Source: an uncultured Lachnospiraceae bacterium
Lineage (GTDB): Bacteria; Bacillota_A; Clostridia; Lachnospirales; Lachnospiraceae
Length of the DNA stretch: 17,673 bases
Assembly: GCA_947564305.1 (NCBI GenBank)
Contig: CANOBT010000112.1
Coordinates: 1 to 17,673 of the forward strand
Direction of reading: 5' to 3'
Part shown: positions 1 to 8,859 of the stretch, piece after piece
Layout of the letters: each line of letters starts with the position of its first letter
Position numbering within the stretch: the stretch's first letter is position 1
Notes under the pieces: model-generated
The model's input: the letters and a program-made list of their open reading frames with translations, nothing else
What the model was told of the DNA's origin: nothing
Databases searched by the model: none
Program-made: the position numbers and the translations under genes

Positions 1-1928
1 GTCTTTCCTTCATCGTATGTACGATTTGTACGACAGATTGCCTGGAGTAATGTATGGTCCTTCATTGGCTTGTCCAAGTACATAACCTGAAGAATCGGCG
101 CATCAAATCCAGTTAGAAGTTTTGATGTAACAATAACAATTTCAAGTGGATCGCCAGGATCTCTAAAACGGTCAAGAATCTTCGCTTCTTCATCCTTGTT
201 GCGTCGATATGCTTTATATTCATCAGCTTTATCATCATTGGTGTCCATTACAATCGTTGAACACTCCGGTCCCAGAAGCTTATCAAGCTCTGTTTTATAT
301 TTAATACAAGAAGGCCGATCGTAGACAACGACCTGCGCTTTATAACCATTCGGTTTAATCTTTTCTGTAAAATGCTTTGCAATATGAGCACAAACCTTAT
401 GGATTCGTTTTTCATTATACATAATTGCCTGCATATTAACTCTTTTTGAAAGCTCAGCCTTATCAAAATCAGAAAGTCCTCTCGTAAGAACATCAAACTC
501 ACGGTCCATCGTATCTCTGTCAACACGAAGATCTACTGGTACCGGTTCAAAATTCAATGGAAGTGTCGCATGGTCGCGAATCGAATCCGAAAAGGAATAC
601 TTACTCATATATCCGTTGCGATCTTCTGTTGCGCCAAATGTAGCAAAGGTATTTTTGTCTGTACGGTTAATTGGTGTTCCCGTCAAGCCAAAAAAGAATG
701 CTTTCGGAAGTGCTGTTCTCATCTTGATGCCAAGATCACCTTCCTGTGTCCTATGACATTCATCAACCATTACGATAATATTATCACGCTGACTAAGTTC
801 TTCCGTTACTTCCTGGAAACGGAAAATTGTCGTAATAATAATCTTACGAATATCCTGACGAAGCATCGTCATCAACTGCTCTCTGGTAGCTGCTGACGCC
901 AGATTTCCAACATCAGATGAATGAAACTGTGCGGTAATCTGGGACTCCAAATCAAGACGGTCATCCACAATGATAACTGTTGGATTCTTCAAGTCCGGAA
1001 GCATACGCATTTTCACCGCAGCAAACTCCATCAAATATGATTTTCCCGATCCCTGGAAATGCCAAATCAAGCCCTGTTTCGGATAGCCCGCACGCACACG
1101 AACAATGAGCATGTTTGCGCCTTCATATTGCTGATAACGGGCAATTACCTTGTATTTACGATACTTATTATCCGTTGCAAACAGAGTAAAAAACTGAAAC
1201 AGATCCATCACTTTATATTGCGTAATCATATCTTTAATACTTGTCTGTACTGCTGCCAGGCTTCCATCTGATTTATCTTCCGTTGTATGCCAGGGTCCCC
1301 ACTTTGCCGCAGGCATGCAAACCGATCCATAGCGATAGAATTTACCTTCCGTGGCAAAATTAAAAACATTAGATACAAACATTTGAGGAATACTCTGTTC
1401 GTATTTATTGATATCCTGTGCGCCATCCAACCAAGTAATTGCCGCACGAACCGGTGTCTTTAATTCTCCTATTACAAATGGAAATCCATTCACCAGTAAT
1501 ACAATGTCCAGACGTTTGCCGCCTTCTTTCTTAGGATAAATCCATTGATTGGTAACAACATATTGATTCTGATCCAGCTTACCGTTAATTTCAGTGCCGA
1601 AGAAATCAATAGATATCTGTTTACCATCCTGTGCATAAGGATAGGAATTCTTCTCAAAAACCATCTGCTTAAATGCCTCGTTCTGTGTAACAAGGTTCTG
1701 TGCATTGGTTGATAAGAAAAGAGTTCTCAACTTGTATATGATTTCATCTGCTCTGGATTCCTCTGCAGCAATTTCCGGATTTAAACGAATCAGTGCGTCG
1801 CGTACCATTGACTCGACCATGACATCACTCTCTTCACGATCAAGTTCTTCCGCCGGAATGTATTCCCAACCATTTTTACTAAGTGTGGTGATAATCATCT
1901 GTTCAGTTGTGTTATCCTCATTAAACAT
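1..1928 (-). CDS. hsdR: Type I restriction enzyme R subunit HsdR (partial, C-terminus beyond window)
   Basis: This is the motor and nuclease subunit of a type I restriction-modification system: it translocates DNA by ATP hydrolysis and cleaves unmethylated DNA while bound to the M and S subunits. The frame is open for 642 codons from ATG 1928 and runs off the left edge; family members are about 1000 residues, so the C-terminal part is missing. Visible motifs are the PD-(D/E)xK nuclease (D141, then E155-L-K157, in GKRLDIVL...GELK), Walker A FQGSGKS (291-297, ends near 1038-1058), the DEAD-box-like VDECH (388-392), the helicase motif GLTGTP (414-419), and QAICRTNR near the left edge. The ribosome binding site AAAGGAG (1935-1941) lies 6 bases before the ATG. 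hsdS ends 100 bases upstream. The same frame is also open about 31 codons upstream of the ATG, but without a ribosome binding site. Confidence 0.97.
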   Translation of the reverse strand, partial: MFNEDNTTEQMIITTLSKNGWEYIPAEELDREESDVMVESMVRDALIRLNPEIAAEESRADEIIYKLRTLFLSTNAQNLVTQNEAFKQMVFEKNSYPYAQDGKQISIDFFGTEINGKLDQNQYVVTNQWIYPKKEGGKRLDIVLLVNGFPFVIGELKTPVRAAITWLDGAQDINKYEQSIPQMFVSNVFNFATEGKFYRYGSVCMPAAKWGPWHTTEDKSDGSLAAVQTSIKDMITQYKVMDLFQFFTLFATDNKYRKYKVIARYQQYEGANMLIVRVRAGYPKQGLIWHFQGSGKSYLMEFAAVKMRMLPDLKNPTVIIVDDRLDLESQITAQFHSSDVGNLASAATREQLMTMLRQDIRKIIITTIFRFQEVTEELSQRDNIIVMVDECHRTQEGDLGIKMRTALPKAFFFGLTGTPINRTDKNTFATFGATEDRNGYMSKYSFSDSIRDHATLPLNFEPVPVDLRVDRDTMDREFDVLTRGLSDFDKAELSKRVNMQAIMYNEKRIHKVCAHIAKHFTEKIKPNGYKAQVVVYDRPSCIKYKTELDKLLGPECSTIVMDTNDDKADEYKAYRRNKDEEAKILDRFRDPGDPLEIVIVTSKLLTGFDAPILQVMYLDKPMKDHTLLQAICRTNRTYDEGK

Positions 1929-2028
1929 GATTTTCTCCTTTCTCGCGTGAGGCGATAGTATGCTTTTGTTTATAATTGTCTCAGTAAAATCTTTTAGCTT
2001 GTCTTGATTATCAGTAGGCAAATTCGAA

Positions 2029-3159
2029 TTATTTTAGTTCTTGTTGTATTAAAGATCTGAGTAGATTATCTACATCCTTTATGGCATGCTTTAATTCGAA
2101 TTTTGATTTATCACTCTGTCTAATAATTGAAGAAAAACTCTCTTGCTGATCTCTTGCCGGGACTGGTACCGGTAACTTTCCCACAAGTTCTTTGTTCAAA
2201 TTTTTTACGACACTTCCGGCTGCCATCGTTTCAAAGAAGCTCTTGGCATACTTTGATGACAGCAACGTATGGAGAAATAATTTATCAAATATCTCTTTTG
2301 TATCCCTAAGCACGAGCCATCCGTCGTGAATATATCCATCAATTGTCAGGATATAGGGCCGTCCAAAGCTCATCGAGTTACTAAGCAGAAAATCTCCTGG
2401 CTCTACGTATCGAGACTTTTTTGTACCTTCCTGGATGATTTTTTCTTTGGTATGCGTGATATATATGGAACCCTCCTCGGCATCGCCGATTTTTATCCAA
2501 TTTACTCCGTCTTCAGAATCGGTAATGTACTTTTCAATCGGTCGTGGTGATCCACCTCTTTCGATCACCATTAGTTCAGATAATGAGTGTAATTTATATC
2601 CATGAGTATTTTCCGTAAGATCTCCAAACATCTCTATAAACTGCGCCTTAATAAGCTCATCCGTTTCTCGAAGCAGCTTCTGATAAGCCTTGCGAGAATC
2701 ATTTATGGACCAAAACAACTCCGCTAGCTCTTTTTGCTTTTCTAATGAAGGTAGATTAAATTCATAATTTTTTAGATGCTGCCACTTGACGCGAGGTGAT
2801 AATGATCCCGCTGATTTTCCAACAGCATAATCAAAGAAGTCATTATTCTGAATAACAAACGGAAGTAACTCTGGAATCAACTTCTCACTTTTTGCACGTA
2901 TAACTGTTATATCCCCTGAACAAATTCCGTCAAATGGCGCTCTTGCCGCCTTCTTAAGATATGCCCTACGACGGCCAAACAGAATATCATCCTTTTGAAA
3001 CATCTTTGTAAAAGTATTCTTTATATTAACGCTCCAATTGGAAAGTGTCACTTCTTCCGGAGTGATATGTTCCAATCCAACAATAGGGTAACCGGTTTTA
3101 TCACCCTTATAGGTTTCCTTAGCTTCAGTCGCAACATCACCTAATTTTACAGTAGACAT
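2029..3159 (-). CDS. hsdS: Type I restriction-modification specificity subunit HsdS (two TRDs)
   Basis: HsdS sets the bipartite DNA target for the methyltransferase and the restriction complex. The protein (376 residues from the chosen start) shows the usual order: a first target-recognition domain (about 1-145) ending in a NLPSLEKQKELAELF conserved segment, a helical spacer (about 150-178), a second TRD starting at YKLHSLSELM (about 190) and ending in PVPARDQQESF, and a C-terminal helix. Two ATGs are available, 3165 and 3159. An AGGAGG at 3167-3172 is only 1 base from the first but 7 from the second, so 3159 is preferred. The longer start would give an ATGA overlap with the hsdM stop. The gene follows the second hsdM and precedes hsdR in an operon. 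No invertible or silent hsdS copy is visible in the window. Confidence 0.95.
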   Translation of the reverse strand: MSTVKLGDVATEAKETYKGDKTGYPIVGLEHITPEEVTLSNWSVNIKNTFTKMFQKDDILFGRRRAYLKKAARAPFDGICSGDITVIRAKSEKLIPELLPFVIQNNDFFDYAVGKSAGSLSPRVKWQHLKNYEFNLPSLEKQKELAELFWSINDSRKAYQKLLRETDELIKAQFIEMFGDLTENTHGYKLHSLSELMVIERGGSPRPIEKYITDSEDGVNWIKIGDAEEGSIYITHTKEKIIQEGTKKSRYVEPGDFLLSNSMSFGRPYILTIDGYIHDGWLVLRDTKEIFDKLFLHTLLSSKYAKSFFETMAAGSVVKNLNKELVGKLPVPVPARDQQESFSSIIRQSDKSKFELKHAIKDVDNLLRSLIQQELK

Positions 3160-3161
3160 TG

Positions 3162-4640
3162 TCATACCTCCTTAAGTAAATTCCCAAGAGCATCATAGTA
3201 CGCCCTTAAACGTTGAGATGTCTTATTCCACGTATCATAACTATCCTGCACCGTCATTACTCTTTCAATAGTAATAGCAGACGGATCTTTCACATATAAA
3301 GGAATACTCAACGAAAAATCATTCTTCTCAATATCACGAATAGAAACCTTTTTCGCAATATCATTGTCAGATTTAAACTTTTCATATGCTCTTGCGATCT
3401 TATCAATATGCTGTGTTTCCAGGTAACTCTGCGCATTTTTCCTTGTAACCTCATTTACAGCATTAATAAAAAGTATCTGACCTTTATTATTTTCCTGCTT
3501 CTTCGTTCTGCAGATAACAATACATGCCTCCATCGGTGAGTTATAAAACAGATTAGCACCCAAACCAATGACACATTCCAATAAATCAGAACGCACCAGT
3601 TTTTCTCTCATCTCCCTCTCTTCGTTTCTGAAAAGAACTCCGTGAGGAAAGAGTATTGCACATCTGCCGGTGTTCTGCTTCATACTTATCAAAATGTGCT
3701 GAAAGAAAGCATAATCAGCTCGCCCCTGCGGAGGCACCCCAAGAAAATTTCGTCCATACTTATCTGCTGTAAAAGCCTCCCGGTTCCACTGATTTATAGA
3801 GTAAGGTGGATTCGCTACAACTACATCAAACTGCTGCAGCTTTCCCCTTTCTATAAATGCAGGTGCTGCAAGAGTATCCCCATTGATAATCTTAAAATCT
3901 TCTATACCATGGAGGAATAAATTCATTCTGGCAATTGCAGACGTCAGAGCATTTATTTCCTGCCCATATAAAGATACATTTCTCCACTCTTTTCCATTGT
4001 CTCGTAAATGTGAAATAGCGGATATTAACATTCCGGCACTTCCACAGGTAGGATCATAAATAGACTCTCCTGATTTCGGCTTTAAAATCTCGGTCATCAA
4101 ATGTACAACAGTACGATTCGTATAAAACTCCTGTGCTGTATGTCCGCTATCATCCGCAAACTTCTTGATGAGATACTCATATCCTTGTCCCAGTTCATCT
4201 TCCGGACAATTCTCAATAGATAAAGTCTTACTGCTGAAATGTTCTAAAAGGTCTTTTAACAGTCTGTCAGGGAGTCGATTCTTGTTTGTCCATGTACCAT
4301 CGCCAAAAATCCCTTGTAATTTCTCATTGTTTGCCTTTTCAATAGCCCGAAATGCTTTCTGTATCGCTTTTCCTACATTCTCTGTTACATTTCTCACATC
4401 ATCCCAATGGGCATCATTCGGAATAACGAAGCTATGTATTTCTTCCCATATGGCAGCCTCCGGTCCGTTTTCCTTAACAGCTTTTTTTGTCTCTTCCTCA
4501 TAAACATCATTCAGACGTTTAAAGAAAAGAAGAGGAAAAATATATTGCTTATAAGCTCCGGCATCTATATGATTTCTTAAAAGGACCGCAGAACCCCAAA
4601 GATAAGATTCCAGCTCATCCTGGGTAATCTTCTTGCTCAT
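3162..4640 (-). CDS. hsdM: Type I restriction-modification DNA methyltransferase HsdM (stand-alone copy)
   Basis: This is an N6-adenine DNA methyltransferase subunit that works with HsdS. It has an N-terminal HsdM helical domain (about 8-140, with FPLLFFKRLNDVYEEE), then the Rossmann methyltransferase domain: the EFYTNRTVV segment, SAM motif I DPTCGSAG (about 196-203 from the chosen start) and catalytic NPPY (about 277-280). Motif I is a variant of the common DPACGTGG seen in the neighbouring fusion, but the key D, P, C and G residues are kept, so activity is plausible. Length (492 residues) is normal. The start is placed at 4640 because AGGAGG at 4649-4654 is 8 bases away, against 2 for the ATG at 4646. 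The start overlaps the 3' end of the upstream ARH-HsdM gene by 26 bases, which suggests translational coupling. It is the second of two HsdM modules in this operon; they are clearly diverged rather than a recent duplication. Confidence 0.95.
   Translation of the reverse strand: MSKKITQDELESYLWGSAVLLRNHIDAGAYKQYIFPLLFFKRLNDVYEEETKKAVKENGPEAAIWEEIHSFVIPNDAHWDDVRNVTENVGKAIQKAFRAIEKANNEKLQGIFGDGTWTNKNRLPDRLLKDLLEHFSSKTLSIENCPEDELGQGYEYLIKKFADDSGHTAQEFYTNRTVVHLMTEILKPKSGESIYDPTCGSAGMLISAISHLRDNGKEWRNVSLYGQEINALTSAIARMNLFLHGIEDFKIINGDTLAAPAFIERGKLQQFDVVVANPPYSINQWNREAFTADKYGRNFLGVPPQGRADYAFFQHILISMKQNTGRCAILFPHGVLFRNEEREMREKLVRSDLLECVIGLGANLFYNSPMEACIVICRTKKQENNKGQILFINAVNEVTRKNAQSYLETQHIDKIARAYEKFKSDNDIAKKVSIRDIEKNDFSLSIPLYVKDPSAITIERVMTVQDSYDTWNKTSQRLRAYYDALGNLLKEV
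3167..3172 (-). promoter_or_regulatory. Ribosome binding site deciding the hsdS start
   Basis: The minus strand reads AAGGAGGTATGACAATG. The AGGAGG is too close to the first ATG (1 base) and ideally spaced (7 bases) for the second, so the second ATG (3159) is the likely start. Confidence 0.6.
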
Positions 4641-7050
4641 TAACATACCCTCCTTCGATCAGAAGTCTCTTCATCTTGTCCTCAGCATTACGGACAGCTT
4701 TCAGCGCTGCATAGTATCTCATCCTCACTACGAATGGAGATACCGTTTCCTGCTTTTTCTTCTCAATATACTTATTTACGCTTAACTCATATCCGCCTGC
4801 TTCAACGTCTGCTAATGTTACGATTTTACATTTCTCAATTACATCTACATAGTCAGAATAGAGTTTATATAATGTATCGACATCTTTTGGTTCTAAAACA
4901 TTCTGTGCGCGCTTTGGTGTATAGATTTCTGAGCCATCAATCAAACAGATTTTTCCTTTATGGTTATACTGCTTTTTATGATTTAGAAACATAATGCAAG
5001 CTGATACCCCAGTACTATAAAATACGCCGCTTGCCAAGGTAATAACTGCTTCCAGTTTATCGGACTTGATCAACTGCTTACGGATTGTTCCCTCCTTACC
5101 GGAGTGAAACAAAACGCCTTGTGGAAGGACCACCGCACAACGTCCGGTCTTTGGATTCATAGACTTAATCATATGTTGAAGCCATGCGTAATCCGCACTT
5201 GAATCACTAGGACATCCCCACATATTTCTTCCATACATATCAGATTCAAACTGTTGTGCACCCCATTTCTCCATACCAAACGGAGGATTTGCGAGAACAC
5301 AATCAAACATTCTCATTTTTCCCTTATCTAAGAATAGTGGATTACGTAATGTGTCACCCTGTTTAATCTGTACATCCTTTGCCCCATGAAGATAAAGATT
5401 CATTCTGGCAATTGCAGATGTGGACAGATTATTTTCCTGGCCAAATATTCTGCCATATGCAAGCCGGTCATTTTTCATATGATGAATCGCCTCAATCAGC
5501 ATGCCACCTGTTCCGCAGGCCGGATCATAAACAGTCTCCCCCGGCTTAGGGTCAAGCAGACGAACCATCAGTTTCACAATCGGACGCGGCGTGTAGAATT
5601 CACCAGCGTTCTTTTTAGACATATCTGCAAATTTCTTAATCAAGTATTCATAACTGTCACCCATAATATCTGCAGAATAGTTTCTATTCCCGACCTTAAT
5701 CAGTGACATATGCTCAATCAGATTCTTTAATCTCTCATCTGTTAATTTATTTTTATCCGTCCAGGTCGCATCATCAAAACTGCTAAATACACCAGACAAA
5801 GTATCAGGATTGGCTTTTTCAATTCCAGTCATAGCCCTAACAATCGCCTTACCAACATTTTCACTCACTTCATGAACATCATTCCAATGACACTCCTCCG
5901 GAATAACAAATGAGTGCATATCCTCTGCCTCTGCATATTCTATATCTCCACCTGAGAATTCCATAGCCTCTTCATATTCTTCATCATAAACATCTGAAAT
6001 ACGCTTAAAGAAAAGAATGGGTGTCACATAGCTTTTAAACTCATCCTGATTGATGGGACCCCTCAAAATATTACAGGACTCAAATAAATGATTAAACAGC
6101 CTCTGACTGGTTGTTTCCTCTACAGTATTCTCAGAATCTACAACATCACTATCTGCTGCTTTTATGGCCGCCTCCATGATTGTTTCACGATTATCTCCTT
6201 TTATTTTTCGTGTTGTACTGCGGCTGACAGGTACACTTACATCTCCAATTTTCTTCTCCATAACCGGAGGATACTTATTCTCAAATGCAATCAATATCTG
6301 CATTAAACGCTCGTCGAGAAAAGTGAGTGCATGTTTTCTAATATCCGATGGAATACCATAATATGCCTCAGCCACACCACCACAGATTGCAGCAAGTGTA
6401 TCACTGTCCCCTCCAATAGAGATGGCATTACGAATCGCATCTTCAAAACTGACTGACTCAAAAAATGCTTCCAGAGCCTGTGGGACTGTTTCCTGACAGG
6501 TTTCATTAAACTGATATGTAGGCCTAATCTCATCGAGTGTAAAACCAATCTTATAATAATTTTTATCCATATAATCCCTAATCTCCAGCATATTGCTTCC
6601 TGTCTTAGCTAAGTAAATCGCAACTGCTATAGATTCCGCACCTTTGATTCCCTCTGGATGGTTGTGCGTTACTGCTGTAACTTTTTCTGAAAGCATCTTT
6701 GCTTCTTCAAGGCTAGTCGCTGCAAAACCTGCAGCACTTACTCTCATTGCAGCACCATTTCCAAAGCTGTTATAAGATTCTGGTTTATCAGAAAACATCC
6801 ATTGATAAAATCCTTTACCATAACCACAGTCAGGATAATTGCGTCCTATTTCCTGCATGCATTCCACAGCATTCTGTGAAAGATCACTGTAATCTGGTTT
6901 ACTTACTAATATTGCCTTGGCCAATGCCAATGTCATAATGCTGTCGTCGGTTGGAAAACATTTGTAAGTAAGAAAATCAAATTCTTTATTTCTATTGTTT
7001 TCCCATTCAAAACGGGAACCGACTATATCCCCGATGATTGCTCCTAACAT
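4615..7050 (-). CDS. ADP-ribosylglycohydrolase-HsdM fusion protein
   Basis: One continuous 811-residue reading frame carries two complete enzymes. Residues 1-260 are an ADP-ribosylglycohydrolase of the ARH/DraG type: GDIVGS (7-12), metal-ligand motif TDDS (34-37), THNHPEG (128-134) and the second metal motif GGDSDT (213-218). All expected Asp and Thr ligands are present, so hydrolysis of an ADP-ribose linkage is plausible; the substrate is unknown. Residues 261-312 are a polar linker. Residues 313-811 are a full HsdM: helical N-domain (FFKRISDVYDEE), GEFYTPRP, SAM motif I DPACGTGG (509-516) and catalytic NPPF (588-591). The start is ATG 7050 with AAAGGAG 7 bases upstream. It is preceded by the pseudo-methyltransferase gene (66-base gap) and overlaps the second hsdM. 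HsdM subunits are normally about 500 residues and stand alone, so the N-terminal hydrolase is the odd element. No stop or obvious frameshift lies at the junction. Confidence 0.93.
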   Translation of the reverse strand: MLGAIIGDIVGSRFEWENNRNKEFDFLTYKCFPTDDSIMTLALAKAILVSKPDYSDLSQNAVECMQEIGRNYPDCGYGKGFYQWMFSDKPESYNSFGNGAAMRVSAAGFAATSLEEAKMLSEKVTAVTHNHPEGIKGAESIAVAIYLAKTGSNMLEIRDYMDKNYYKIGFTLDEIRPTYQFNETCQETVPQALEAFFESVSFEDAIRNAISIGGDSDTLAAICGGVAEAYYGIPSDIRKHALTFLDERLMQILIAFENKYPPVMEKKIGDVSVPVSRSTTRKIKGDNRETIMEAAIKAADSDVVDSENTVEETTSQRLFNHLFESCNILRGPINQDEFKSYVTPILFFKRISDVYDEEYEEAMEFSGGDIEYAEAEDMHSFVIPEECHWNDVHEVSENVGKAIVRAMTGIEKANPDTLSGVFSSFDDATWTDKNKLTDERLKNLIEHMSLIKVGNRNYSADIMGDSYEYLIKKFADMSKKNAGEFYTPRPIVKLMVRLLDPKPGETVYDPACGTGGMLIEAIHHMKNDRLAYGRIFGQENNLSTSAIARMNLYLHGAKDVQIKQGDTLRNPLFLDKGKMRMFDCVLANPPFGMEKWGAQQFESDMYGRNMWGCPSDSSADYAWLQHMIKSMNPKTGRCAVVLPQGVLFHSGKEGTIRKQLIKSDKLEAVITLASGVFYSTGVSACIMFLNHKKQYNHKGKICLIDGSEIYTPKRAQNVLEPKDVDTLYKLYSDYVDVIEKCKIVTLADVEAGGYELSVNKYIEKKKQETVSPFVVRMRYYAALKAVRNAEDKMKRLLIEGGYVNEQEDYPG
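4649..4654 (-). promoter_or_regulatory. Ribosome binding site deciding the stand-alone hsdM start
   Basis: The minus strand reads AAGGAGGGTATGTTAATGAG. Spacing favours the second ATG (4640, 8 bases) over the first (4646, 2 bases). The site lies inside the 3' end of the upstream fusion gene, as expected for coupled translation. Confidence 0.6.
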
Positions 7051-7116: not shown

Positions 7117-8721
7117 CTAGAAACTCTGCAGCTTAGCAAGAACACCCTGCCAGCGTTTTTCAGCTTCTGAAACTGTATTCATATACTTCTTCAATTCTTT
7201 TTTATATTCCTCAACGACTTTTTTCTGCTCATCCATCGGTGGAACAGGAATCTCAAGTGCTGCCAAATCCTTATAACTGATATTCATTATTGACGTCCCT
7301 TGCTGTGCACTACTTATCAATTTGTTTCCAAGTGGACTATCCAAGAATACTTTCAAATAAATACCATTTAATTTTTTCTCATCAGGTCTTATTATGATTA
7401 TATTGGAATGTGCAATACACGGAAAACTTTGTTCATGAAACACAGAAGTCCTTATTGCTGTGCCTCTTCCCGGAAGAAGAACATCTCCATCCTGAAGGAT
7501 ATAATTAGAAACCTTTCGCTCATCTTCATCAATCATATCTAAGTTTTCATAATCAATCTCATACTCTCCAATGTTGGATATGTTTATAACCCCTATTACA
7601 CCATTCCCAATTTTCTTAGTTACCGACTTGCCTCTAAATACTTGAGCAACATTCCCGAGAAAATCCTTACGAATACCTGAATTTTGATAGTTTAGATATT
7701 CATCATCCTGCTGTGCGAAAATACGGTCAATACTCCAATCGCCCTGTTGCTCTAACTCACTGAGCATTACAAAGGTATCATCCTGAATGTTGAGTTCTGT
7801 AACAGCAGCCCTTTTAGACTTGCGTTCCCCGGCAGAATATCTTCTTATGATAACATCATCGTCCTCCGGCCTGGTATTTTCTATATTAAGCAAATATGTC
7901 TTAATACCAGTACATTCCAAAACACCTTCCGGTAATTCTGCAATTTCTTTAATAGTGTAATTACTCTGCACAAATTTTCTCAGGTCTGCTATTTTCCCTG
8001 CTGCAAAAGTAATTCTTCCCGGAAGAATTATGTTCATCTTCCCTCCGCTATTTAAATGATAAGAGAGATTCTCCAAGGCAGCCATATCGTATTCCCGACA
8101 TATAAAAGTTCTTTCTTCAGTAAGTGTTCTGTTACCAAATATCGGTGAAGCAAGTATCAGATCAAAACGCTGATTGATAAACTCATATTCATAAATGCTT
8201 GCCTTTACAAGCTTAACATTATCATACTCTTTAAATACTTTTTCAAGTGCACCAATGTATCTTACATCTTGGCTAGTAAACGTAAATTCAGAATTGATAT
8301 GTTCGTCTACAATCCACTGTAAAAATGGGACAAACTTTTCTGCCTCAGCTATCAAAACTTTTTCTGTGTCACTAGTAATGTAAGTCGAAAATTTTCTAAT
8401 CAAAACCTCTGGAAGCATCGGATACTTGCAATTCTTAAAATCTAACATTAATGCCTGCTCCCATGGTATCTGACCCGTCACATTCGAAAATACTCTGTAA
8501 AACTGATCACTGTCGCCAAAAGGATTTTGTAAACCTTTCTTATCTGCAATCTTTAAAAGAAGCACATACAGTTCTTCCGGCGTCTTAGCTACATTGCCTT
8601 CTTCTATAGCTTGTCTGACCTCATTTACTAATAAGAAGGCCGGAATCATCTGATCCATTTTAACGTTTCCTCTCATAACATTCATTTCTTCATGAAGTCT
8701 GTCATTTCTTAAACTATTCAT
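7117..8721 (-). CDS. Degenerate N6-methyltransferase fold with single C-terminal TRD (HsdM/HsdS-like hybrid)
   Basis: This is the first gene of the restriction-modification operon, 534 residues long. Residues about 100-280 follow the layout of an N6-adenine methyltransferase (strand, helix, FDLILASPIFG at 187-196, a GGKMNIILPGR strand, then ECTGIKTYLL), but the SAM-binding glycine motif is not recognisable (VLIAEAEKF at 122-130 in its place) and the catalytic NPP(F/Y) is SPIF (192-195). Methylation by this protein is therefore unlikely. Residues about 350-495 look like one type I target-recognition domain (FLGNVAQVFRGKSV at the start, IPVPPMDEQKKVVEEY at the end), followed by a charged helix, probably coiled coil. 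The N-terminal 100 residues are not recognised. The start is ATG 8721 with GGAGG at 8730-8734, 8 bases away. It could be a targeting or regulatory partner of the two HsdMs, an accessory S-like subunit, or a type IIG-like relic. The domain reading is from motifs only. Confidence 0.85.
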   Translation of the reverse strand: MNSLRNDRLHEEMNVMRGNVKMDQMIPAFLLVNEVRQAIEEGNVAKTPEELYVLLLKIADKKGLQNPFGDSDQFYRVFSNVTGQIPWEQALMLDFKNCKYPMLPEVLIRKFSTYITSDTEKVLIAEAEKFVPFLQWIVDEHINSEFTFTSQDVRYIGALEKVFKEYDNVKLVKASIYEYEFINQRFDLILASPIFGNRTLTEERTFICREYDMAALENLSYHLNSGGKMNIILPGRITFAAGKIADLRKFVQSNYTIKEIAELPEGVLECTGIKTYLLNIENTRPEDDDVIIRRYSAGERKSKRAAVTELNIQDDTFVMLSELEQQGDWSIDRIFAQQDDEYLNYQNSGIRKDFLGNVAQVFRGKSVTKKIGNGVIGVINISNIGEYEIDYENLDMIDEDERKVSNYILQDGDVLLPGRGTAIRTSVFHEQSFPCIAHSNIIIIRPDEKKLNGIYLKVFLDSPLGNKLISSAQQGTSIMNISYKDLAALEIPVPPMDEQKKVVEEYKKELKKYMNTVSEAEKRWQGVLAKLQSF

Positions 8722-8765: not shown

Positions 8766-8794
8766 ACTTTATCATGCCATTTCAATATCGTCAA
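8766..8794 (-). promoter_or_regulatory. Promoter of the restriction-modification operon
   Basis: The minus strand has TTGACG (8789-8794), a 17-base spacer and TAAAGT (8766-8771) with an upstream TG (extended -10). Predicted transcription would begin near 8759, about 38 bases before ATG 8721 and ahead of its ribosome binding site. The -35 overlaps the edge of the inverted repeat at 8790-8835. Confidence 0.6.
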
Positions 8795-8835
8795 TATTAT
8801 ATTTTGATATTCAAATACCAAAATATAATATTGAC
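8790..8835. repeat. Perfect 17-bp inverted repeat, candidate operator
   Basis: GTCAATATTATATTTTG (8790-8806) is the exact reverse complement of 8819-8835, with a 12-base centre. It is very AT-rich, without GC-rich arms followed by a T-run, so it is not a normal intrinsic terminator. Both outer ends form TTGAC -35 cores pointing outwards. A regulator bound here would cover the -35 of both promoters. No regulator gene is visible nearby. Confidence 0.75.
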
Positions 8836-8859
8836 ATTATTATAGCTAACTGATATAGG
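8831..8859 (+). promoter_or_regulatory. Mirror-image plus-strand promoter
   Basis: TTGACA (8831-8836), a 17-base spacer and TATAGG (8854-8859) with TG one base upstream of the -10. It mirrors the operon promoter in both spacing and extended -10. Transcription would run into the 3' end of spmA as antisense; no convincing plus-strand gene with a ribosome binding site follows. Confidence 0.4.

Follow-up and report, generated by a model that had tools for sequence, protein, structure and literature searches.

An ADP-ribosylglycohydrolase domain fused to the M1 methyltransferase of a PacII-type restriction-modification system

ADP-ribosylhydrolases (ARHs) remove ADP-ribose from proteins, and DarG, the eraser of DarTG, is a macrodomain. 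ARH erasers are also active on RNA phosphate ends (PMC11833690). Non-canonical type I restriction-modification (R-M) systems, exemplified by PacII, are described in PMC9613975 as having two M subunits, of which M1 carries an NPPF motif and makes N6-methyladenine (m6A), and M2 carries NPPY and makes N4-methylcytosine (m4C). A DarTG2 lying inside a type I R-M locus has been published (PMC12255303). Here we analysed a 17,673-nucleotide stretch of an uncultured Lachnospiraceae bacterium (contig CANOBT010000112.1), referred to below as the window, which encodes a PacII-type system whose M1 subunit is fused to an ARH (ARH-M1) and which is headed by a pseudo-methyltransferase gene (pMT).

ARH-M1 is a single ATG-to-stop frame of 811 amino acids (aa), running from 7050 to 4615 on the minus strand and preceded by the Shine-Dalgarno sequence gaaaggag; the first frame of the plus strand over 4615..7050 contains many stops. 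An earlier note on this DNA had described 4615..7050 as one unbroken frame joining an ARH to a type I HsdM. Its coordinates were correct, the strand being absent from it, and Pfam indeed assigned ADP_ribosyl_GH to residues 1-233 (E 4.2e-31; 109.1 bits against a cut-off of 26.2), HsdM_N to residues 320-448 (E 8.2e-23) and N6_Mtase to residues 459-768 (E 2.1e-94), the last two well above their cut-offs. All four motifs it had named are present, namely TDDS (34-37), GGDSDT (213-218), DPACGTGG (509-516) and NPPF (588-591), the last marking an HsdM of the M1, m6A type. The ARH domain (residues 1-261; 6268..7050, minus strand) is predicted to adopt an ARH3-like fold, with E15, T34, D35, D36, S37, the GNGAAMR stretch at 97-103, H129, D215, D217 and T218 as key residues. 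The conserved TDD and GGDSDT residues, which we take to be the ligands of the ARH bimetal site, were invariant in all 126-127 filled alignment rows, drawn from 119 listed of 4294 matches, the window and seven loci, and the loss of metal ligands contemplated by the earlier note was not seen. The HsdM part (HsdM_N and N6_Mtase; 4615..6102, minus strand) has PacII M1 (7vru_A) as its top PDB match. Between the two lies a linker (residues about 262-316; 6103..6267, minus strand) that is the least conserved portion of ARH-M1, with a mean pairwise identity of 45.8% over residues 256-312 versus 76% on either side, and the predicted local distance difference test (pLDDT) score falls below 50 at residues 310-338 of the predicted structure.

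The domain order recurs well beyond the window. A search with residues 1-310 recovered 4294 proteins at E<=1e-3 (candidate lengths 446-1419 aa), and 119 of the 120 listed matches combine PF03747, PF12161 and PF02384, the sole exception (P0002) being a tandem ARH. Of these 120, 86 share a length of exactly 805 aa, and 20, several of them from short contigs, fall short of 700 aa; the few that bear a source name are annotated as 'N-6 DNA methylase' or 'type I restriction enzyme M protein'. Among whole genomes the fusion is rare and patchy: fused frames occurred in 3/299 genomes of the family of G001 (E<=1e-20), in 4/392 of its order and in 2/398 of its phylum (both E<=1e-78), the last two genomes being G001, which enters all three counts alike, and G640, whose M part is spread over two frames. 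IMG/VR added nine further fusions. We examined 16 distinct loci (the window, L001, L076-L081 and L119-L126), L127 having been removed because its coding sequence is identical to that of L080; the M part of L081 is split across two frames, and L077 and L125 start at contig ends. An assembly artefact or chance fusion is ruled out by this recurrence in proteins and loci. No plasmid or phage record covered 80% of the fusion, and no plasmid matched pMT at E<=1e-40. Long-frame ARH proteins of G040, G241, G161:C28 and G003, with ARHs 34-42% identical, showed no HsdM similarity at E<=1e-4 and thus add nothing to the fusion counts. No description of the fusion was found in the literature searched, whose coverage lacked most subscription papers. 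Mean identity was 76.2% in the ARH part versus 75.7% in the methyltransferase part (14 rows, the L127 duplicate included). Judging from these sequences, both active sites of ARH-M1 are intact and the fusion is recurrent and under purifying selection, and the ARH domain, with its active site preserved, is seemingly competent for catalysis.

The fused gene belongs to an operon in the order pMT - ARH-M1 - M2 - S - R. The second HsdM, of the M2 type (NPPY, m4C; 494 aa; 3162..4646, minus strand), begins 32 bp within the 3' end of ARH-M1 and overlaps HsdS (2029..3165, minus strand; two target recognition domains, TRDs) by 4 bp; gaps of 7 bp and 66 bp separate HsdS from HsdR and pMT from ARH-M1, respectively. 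HsdR (3..2021, minus strand) leaves the window at its edge after the N-terminal 673 aa, and a complete homologue of 989 aa in L001 is 93% identical across the shared part. The best PDB matches follow PacII subunit by subunit: the fused HsdM matched PacII M1 (6.3e-135), M2 matched PacII M2 (7vru_B, 4.6e-175) and HsdS matched PacII S (7vru_C, 2.7e-30). NPPF was present in M1 at 20/20 loci (17 fused, the L127 duplicate counted, and 3 unfused) and NPPY in M2 at 18/18, and R24 of the window's M2 aligns with the M2-specific R29 of PacII. Taken together, these matches, motifs and the R29-type arginine indicate that the system is a non-canonical type I R-M system of the m6A/m4C PacII type, its methylation marks being predicted. 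The partner of the ARH is therefore an HsdM, as the earlier note had it, though not a lone one: it is the M1 of a two-M system, and the second HsdM, HsdS and HsdR downstream and pMT upstream had been missed. In HsdS, TRD1 is conserved (mean identity 64.6%) and TRD2 hypervariable (18.7%; n=10), so that only half of the recognition site seems to vary in specificity; if PacII is a guide, this is the half served by M1 (m6A). TRD1 of the window keeps R75, R76, Y78 and K81 of PacII but has L in place of Q79 and D in place of H94, so a CCC half-site is not assured. The stretch GRRRAYLKK was present in 14/17 S genes, with no match in L078 (cut), L122 or L002.

The neighbours of the fusion are constant, which the earlier note had named as support for a real system. 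M2 followed ARH-M1 in 16/16 loci, and pMT lay upstream in 13/13 loci with upstream DNA (L077, L123 and L125 are cut upstream of ARH-M1, and L127 was left out as a duplicate of L080). The two genes were adjacent in 10 loci and separated elsewhere by a DUF2971 gene (L079), HsdR (L119) or three genes (L122). Of the three genes inserted in L122 (L122:2335-5873), one resembles SRA weakly, below the cut-off, and another encodes a Schlafen-group helicase domain. Orthologues of M2 with at least 69% identity were found in 6/392 genomes of the order, four with ARH-M1 and pMT and two (G097 and G533) in which M1 is unfused and pMT was not detected at E<=1e-30. This 4/4 versus 0/2 distribution is not significant (Fisher p 0.07), and the pairing of pMT with ARH-M1 is suggestive in a small sample. 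At L199, the G097 locus, a split pair of genes for a pseudo-M and a single TRD stands in the place of pMT.

To place the fused ARHs, 172 hits were reduced to 140 rows, including seven database proteins and the window, once duplicates, stop-containing hits and hits covering fewer than about 225 positions had been dropped, and a tree was built with a quick method. The 21 fused rows all fell, together with 6 unfused ones, into a single set of 27 that was supported at SH-aLRT 96. Four label changes are required, at least three of them forced by the starred branches, and the tree is compatible both with a single gain of the fusion followed by losses and with several gains. The earlier note had raised the prospect of close relatives with two separate genes; six of the 27 are indeed unfused, but none of these (L082, L083, L085, L086, L088 and L253) was followed by an intact HsdM in the flanks examined. 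The unfused ARH at L083:8223-9206, 72% identical, has a 42-residue HsdM remnant directly behind it (43% identity, E 2e-5), which argues for loss from a fused state and not for a split gene in the window; L083 thus seems to be a fusion that lost its methylase secondarily. Sister ARHs are fused to NADAR, to HD_4/SseB (L093) or to DUF6508 (L091). The protein at L089:5942-7321 joins an ARH of the same subfamily to NADAR, that is, two different ADP-ribose erasers in one protein, and the combination appears again in 3/120 listed proteins (P0241, P0242 and P0244), of which one nearly duplicates L089 (98%).

As for function, the earlier note had suggested that the ARH may reverse ADP-ribosylation by phage or toxin, or switch the methyltransferase or restriction activity; both are hypotheses. 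We tentatively propose, with a confidence slightly short of even, that the ARH tethered to M1 protects the R-M complex and/or its DNA from hostile ADP-ribosylation, its activity being predicted. A predicted ARH3-fold hydrolase is attached to the N-terminus of M1 by a variable, probably flexible linker. M1 would nucleate assembly on S, as inferred from PacII, so that each M1M2S or R2M1M2S complex would hold one ARH beside its target DNA. There it could free the subunits of the complex, or the DNA that the complex clamps, of ADP-ribose, and methylation and restriction could continue despite ADP-ribosylation, most likely that of phage or competitor enzymes. We favour protection for two reasons. 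No writer was found to travel with the cassette, among 10 inserted genes scanned with Pfam and, for DarT, in seven fusion genomes, which makes a toxin-antitoxin pair less likely; and ARHs act as erasers on both proteins and RNA phosphate ends.

Several observations weigh against this proposal. Related m6A/m4C systems at L199 and L200, with M1 69% and 64% identical, lack the ARH, and the six unfused ARHs within the fused clade show that some lineages can do without the linkage. No known ADP-ribosyltransferase was detected by Pfam among 10 cassette-inserted genes scanned, a few small inserts being left out. DarT was found in 0/7 fusion genomes, which are possibly incomplete, versus 2/52 others, a comparison of little power, and a host DarT as the writer is not supported by these counts; the operon part within the window, which ends inside HsdR, holds no DarT. 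At about 25% identity to ARH3, the substrate of the ARH is not readable from its sequence. Finally, the bacterial ARH SCO5809 showed no activity towards RNA carrying guanosine- or 2'-OH-linked ADP-ribose (PMC11833690). DUF2971, considered as a writer because of the gene at L079:4951-5913 between pMT and ARH-M1, was rejected, being present in 1/16 loci only; no paper naming DUF2971 together with ADP-ribos was found in the literature searched.

A narrower form of the protection proposal, overlapping with it in probability and by itself unlikely, is that the ARH acts on DNA only, clearing ADP-ribose from its bases or ends, which would let the R-M complex read, methylate or cut it. The attachment of the ARH to a DNA-enclosing clamp (PMC9613975) and the NADAR fusions of sister ARHs fit this idea; the inactivity of SCO5809 on guanosine-linked ADP-ribose, albeit of RNA (PMC11833690), and the lack of DarT in the seven fusion genomes do not. 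We consider it still less probable that the ARH serves a regulatory switch, in which a host enzyme encoded elsewhere lowers restriction by ADP-ribosylating M1, M2, S or R and the ARH reverses this in the manner of DraG and dinitrogenase reductase. Such a switch would accommodate an unlinked writer, yet no writer was found in the cassettes, DarT was detected in none of the same seven genomes, the top sequence match is ARH3 (1.5e-15) versus DraG (7e-9), and sister systems do without the ARH. Equally improbable in our estimate is action on soluble O-acetyl-ADP-ribose, ADP-ribose-phosphate or NAD-derived signals, by which the ARH would clear or sense a defence metabolite. ARH3 is reported to hydrolyse O-acetyl-ADP-ribose, and related ARHs do occur in multidomain proteins with HD_4 and SseB (L093) or DUF6508 (L091), but the fusion to M1 of one R-M type and not to an effector is left unexplained, and no such effector recurred in the cassettes examined. 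A non-enzymatic passenger, or a part needed for assembly or steric reasons, for which the fold would suffice and with which the variable, partly low-confidence linker agrees, is highly doubtful given that active-site positions are invariant and the ARH is conserved like the methyltransferase part.

The gene at the head of the operon, pMT (7117..8721, minus strand; 534 aa), encodes a pseudo-methyltransferase with an M.TaqI/CamA-like fold and one TRD, recognized by Pfam as a degenerate N6_Mtase and one Methylase_S domain. Motif IV reads SPIF, its second P being lost in all 17 rows shown; [NDS]PP[FYW] was absent from residues 171-220 in all 120 listed pMT homologues, and no motif I was seen in pMT. 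The model (pLDDT 86.3) resembles CamA, M.TaqI and M.BseCI, and its last third resembles Esub1. Mean identity was 63.9% in the TRD versus 41.5% in the methyltransferase part (n=13, the L080/L127 duplicate included). pMT also occurs without ARH-M1 in L103 (type III), L246 (ordinary type I) and L102 (beside GmrSD_N, contig cut), and it is thus not specific to the fusion. L160 and the 979-aa protein of L248 match it through the TRD only.

Upstream of pMT lies a candidate operator, the palindrome TTTGATATT-NN-AATACCAAA (8803..8822), which is the core of a 28-nt inverted repeat at 8784-8841. Allowing up to 3 mismatches in 18, we found the pattern TTTGGTATT-NN-AATACCAAA, or else its A/T variant, 5' of pMT in 15/15 genes with upstream DNA: 12 fusion loci, L138, L103 (type III) and L246. 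The sites include L001:8208, L076:341, L078:6556, L080:7733, L081:7804 and L103:7720, and they lie 64-107 bases from pMT (about 67 in L246), that of L122 being 330 bases out; L119 and L138 share the same site and possibly represent one lineage. Shuffled sequences matched as well in 0/1000 trials in 13 cases, in 1 for L103 and in 4 for L079, a test that is in-sample except for L246, as the pattern was derived from these loci. L246, fetched once the pattern was fixed, has one mismatch, and its pMT, 36% identical, stands beside an ordinary single-M type I system. Only background was seen in M1M2 loci without pMT (5, 7 and 7 mismatches), and L248 has no palindrome (9 mismatches; 783/1000 shuffles equally good); L160 lacks upstream DNA and the L102 contig ends 13 bases upstream of pMT. 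Across 1.80 Mb of fetched loci, all matches to TTTGGTATTNNAATACCAAA with at most one mismatch lie 5' of pMT. A scan of IMG/VR with the exact degenerate pattern returned 41 stretches, one holding pMT, and the pattern alone is thus not diagnostic.

Since the palindrome-bearing loci, which span PacII-type, ordinary type I and type III systems, share pMT and not an R-M type, pMT may bind the upstream palindrome as its operator. It would probably act apart from the ARH, controlling the operon, and a dead methyltransferase with a TRD may represent a portable autoregulator of R-M operons. A separate regulator, such as the downstream HTH_26 protein, may act instead. Related proteins of 626-676 aa lie downstream of the cassette in six loci (L001:18038-20017, L119:14928-16808, L120:10398-12311, L122:14242-16194, L124:9694-11643 and L125:7627-9657), and the L001 member has HTH_26 above and an IrrE-like domain below the cut-off. 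The full combination, in which an M1M2S clamp with a built-in eraser for itself or nearby DNA resists or partners ADP-ribosylation-based warfare and pMT, with its fixed TRD, controls transcription of the operon, seems to us rather unlikely to hold in every part.

Four loci carry a tyrosine recombinase gene between HsdS and HsdR (L121:14061-15083, L123:5648-6688, L126:14037-15032 and L127:13085-14065, the last the same as L080), each with an extra HsdS-like gene nearby that is 21-31% identical to the HsdS of the window; phase-variable specificity is likely there. The rest of the contig is, by its Pfam domains, made up of ordinary chromosomal genes: Gate (nucleoside recognition), DUF885, a tetrapyrrole-type methylase, a small methyltransferase, PSP1, DNA polymerase III delta' and an Orn/Lys/Arg decarboxylase.

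The fusion brings together two kinds of chemistry used in bacterial conflict, sequence-specific DNA methylation and restriction on the one hand and an activity predicted to reverse ADP-ribosylation on the other, within a single chain of a machine built from several subunits. Because this machine has a solved relative in PacII, ADP-ribosylation directed against, or controlling, type I R-M becomes directly testable. The pair of pMT and palindrome suggests, in addition, that dead DNA methyltransferases can act as R-M controllers.

Among known systems, M and S share weak domain similarity with MADS (mad2, mad5), but membership was rejected because the scores fall far below the family thresholds, at 86.4 and 52.3 versus 720 bits and 49.1 and 54.4 versus 400 (NCBIfam cut-offs). 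DarTG likewise has an ADP-ribose eraser in a defence setting, but no DarT or other writer was found here and the eraser of the window has the ARH fold. The TRD third of pMT resembles Esub1 (PDB 8vsq and 8vsr, with Prx) at 36-37% identity and a template modelling score of 0.89-0.91 (target length) over 183-194 columns; unlike Esub1, pMT adds a dead methyltransferase domain. A single-term literature search on Esub1 returned unrelated papers. With ARH3/DraG-type enzymes (PF03747) the ARH shares the fold across the whole domain, the TDD and GGDSDT motifs, and E15, aligned with the ARH3 glutamate that is numbered E41 in PDB titles; at about 255 aa it is shorter, and it is joined to a DNA methyltransferase. 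The system resembles PacII (7vru and 7vs4; PMC9613975) in its two M subunits, its S with two TRDs, its R, the R29-type arginine of M2 and four TRD1 residues. Unlike PacII, it differs at Q79 and H94 of TRD1, is preceded by the pMT gene and bears an ARH on the N-terminus of M1.

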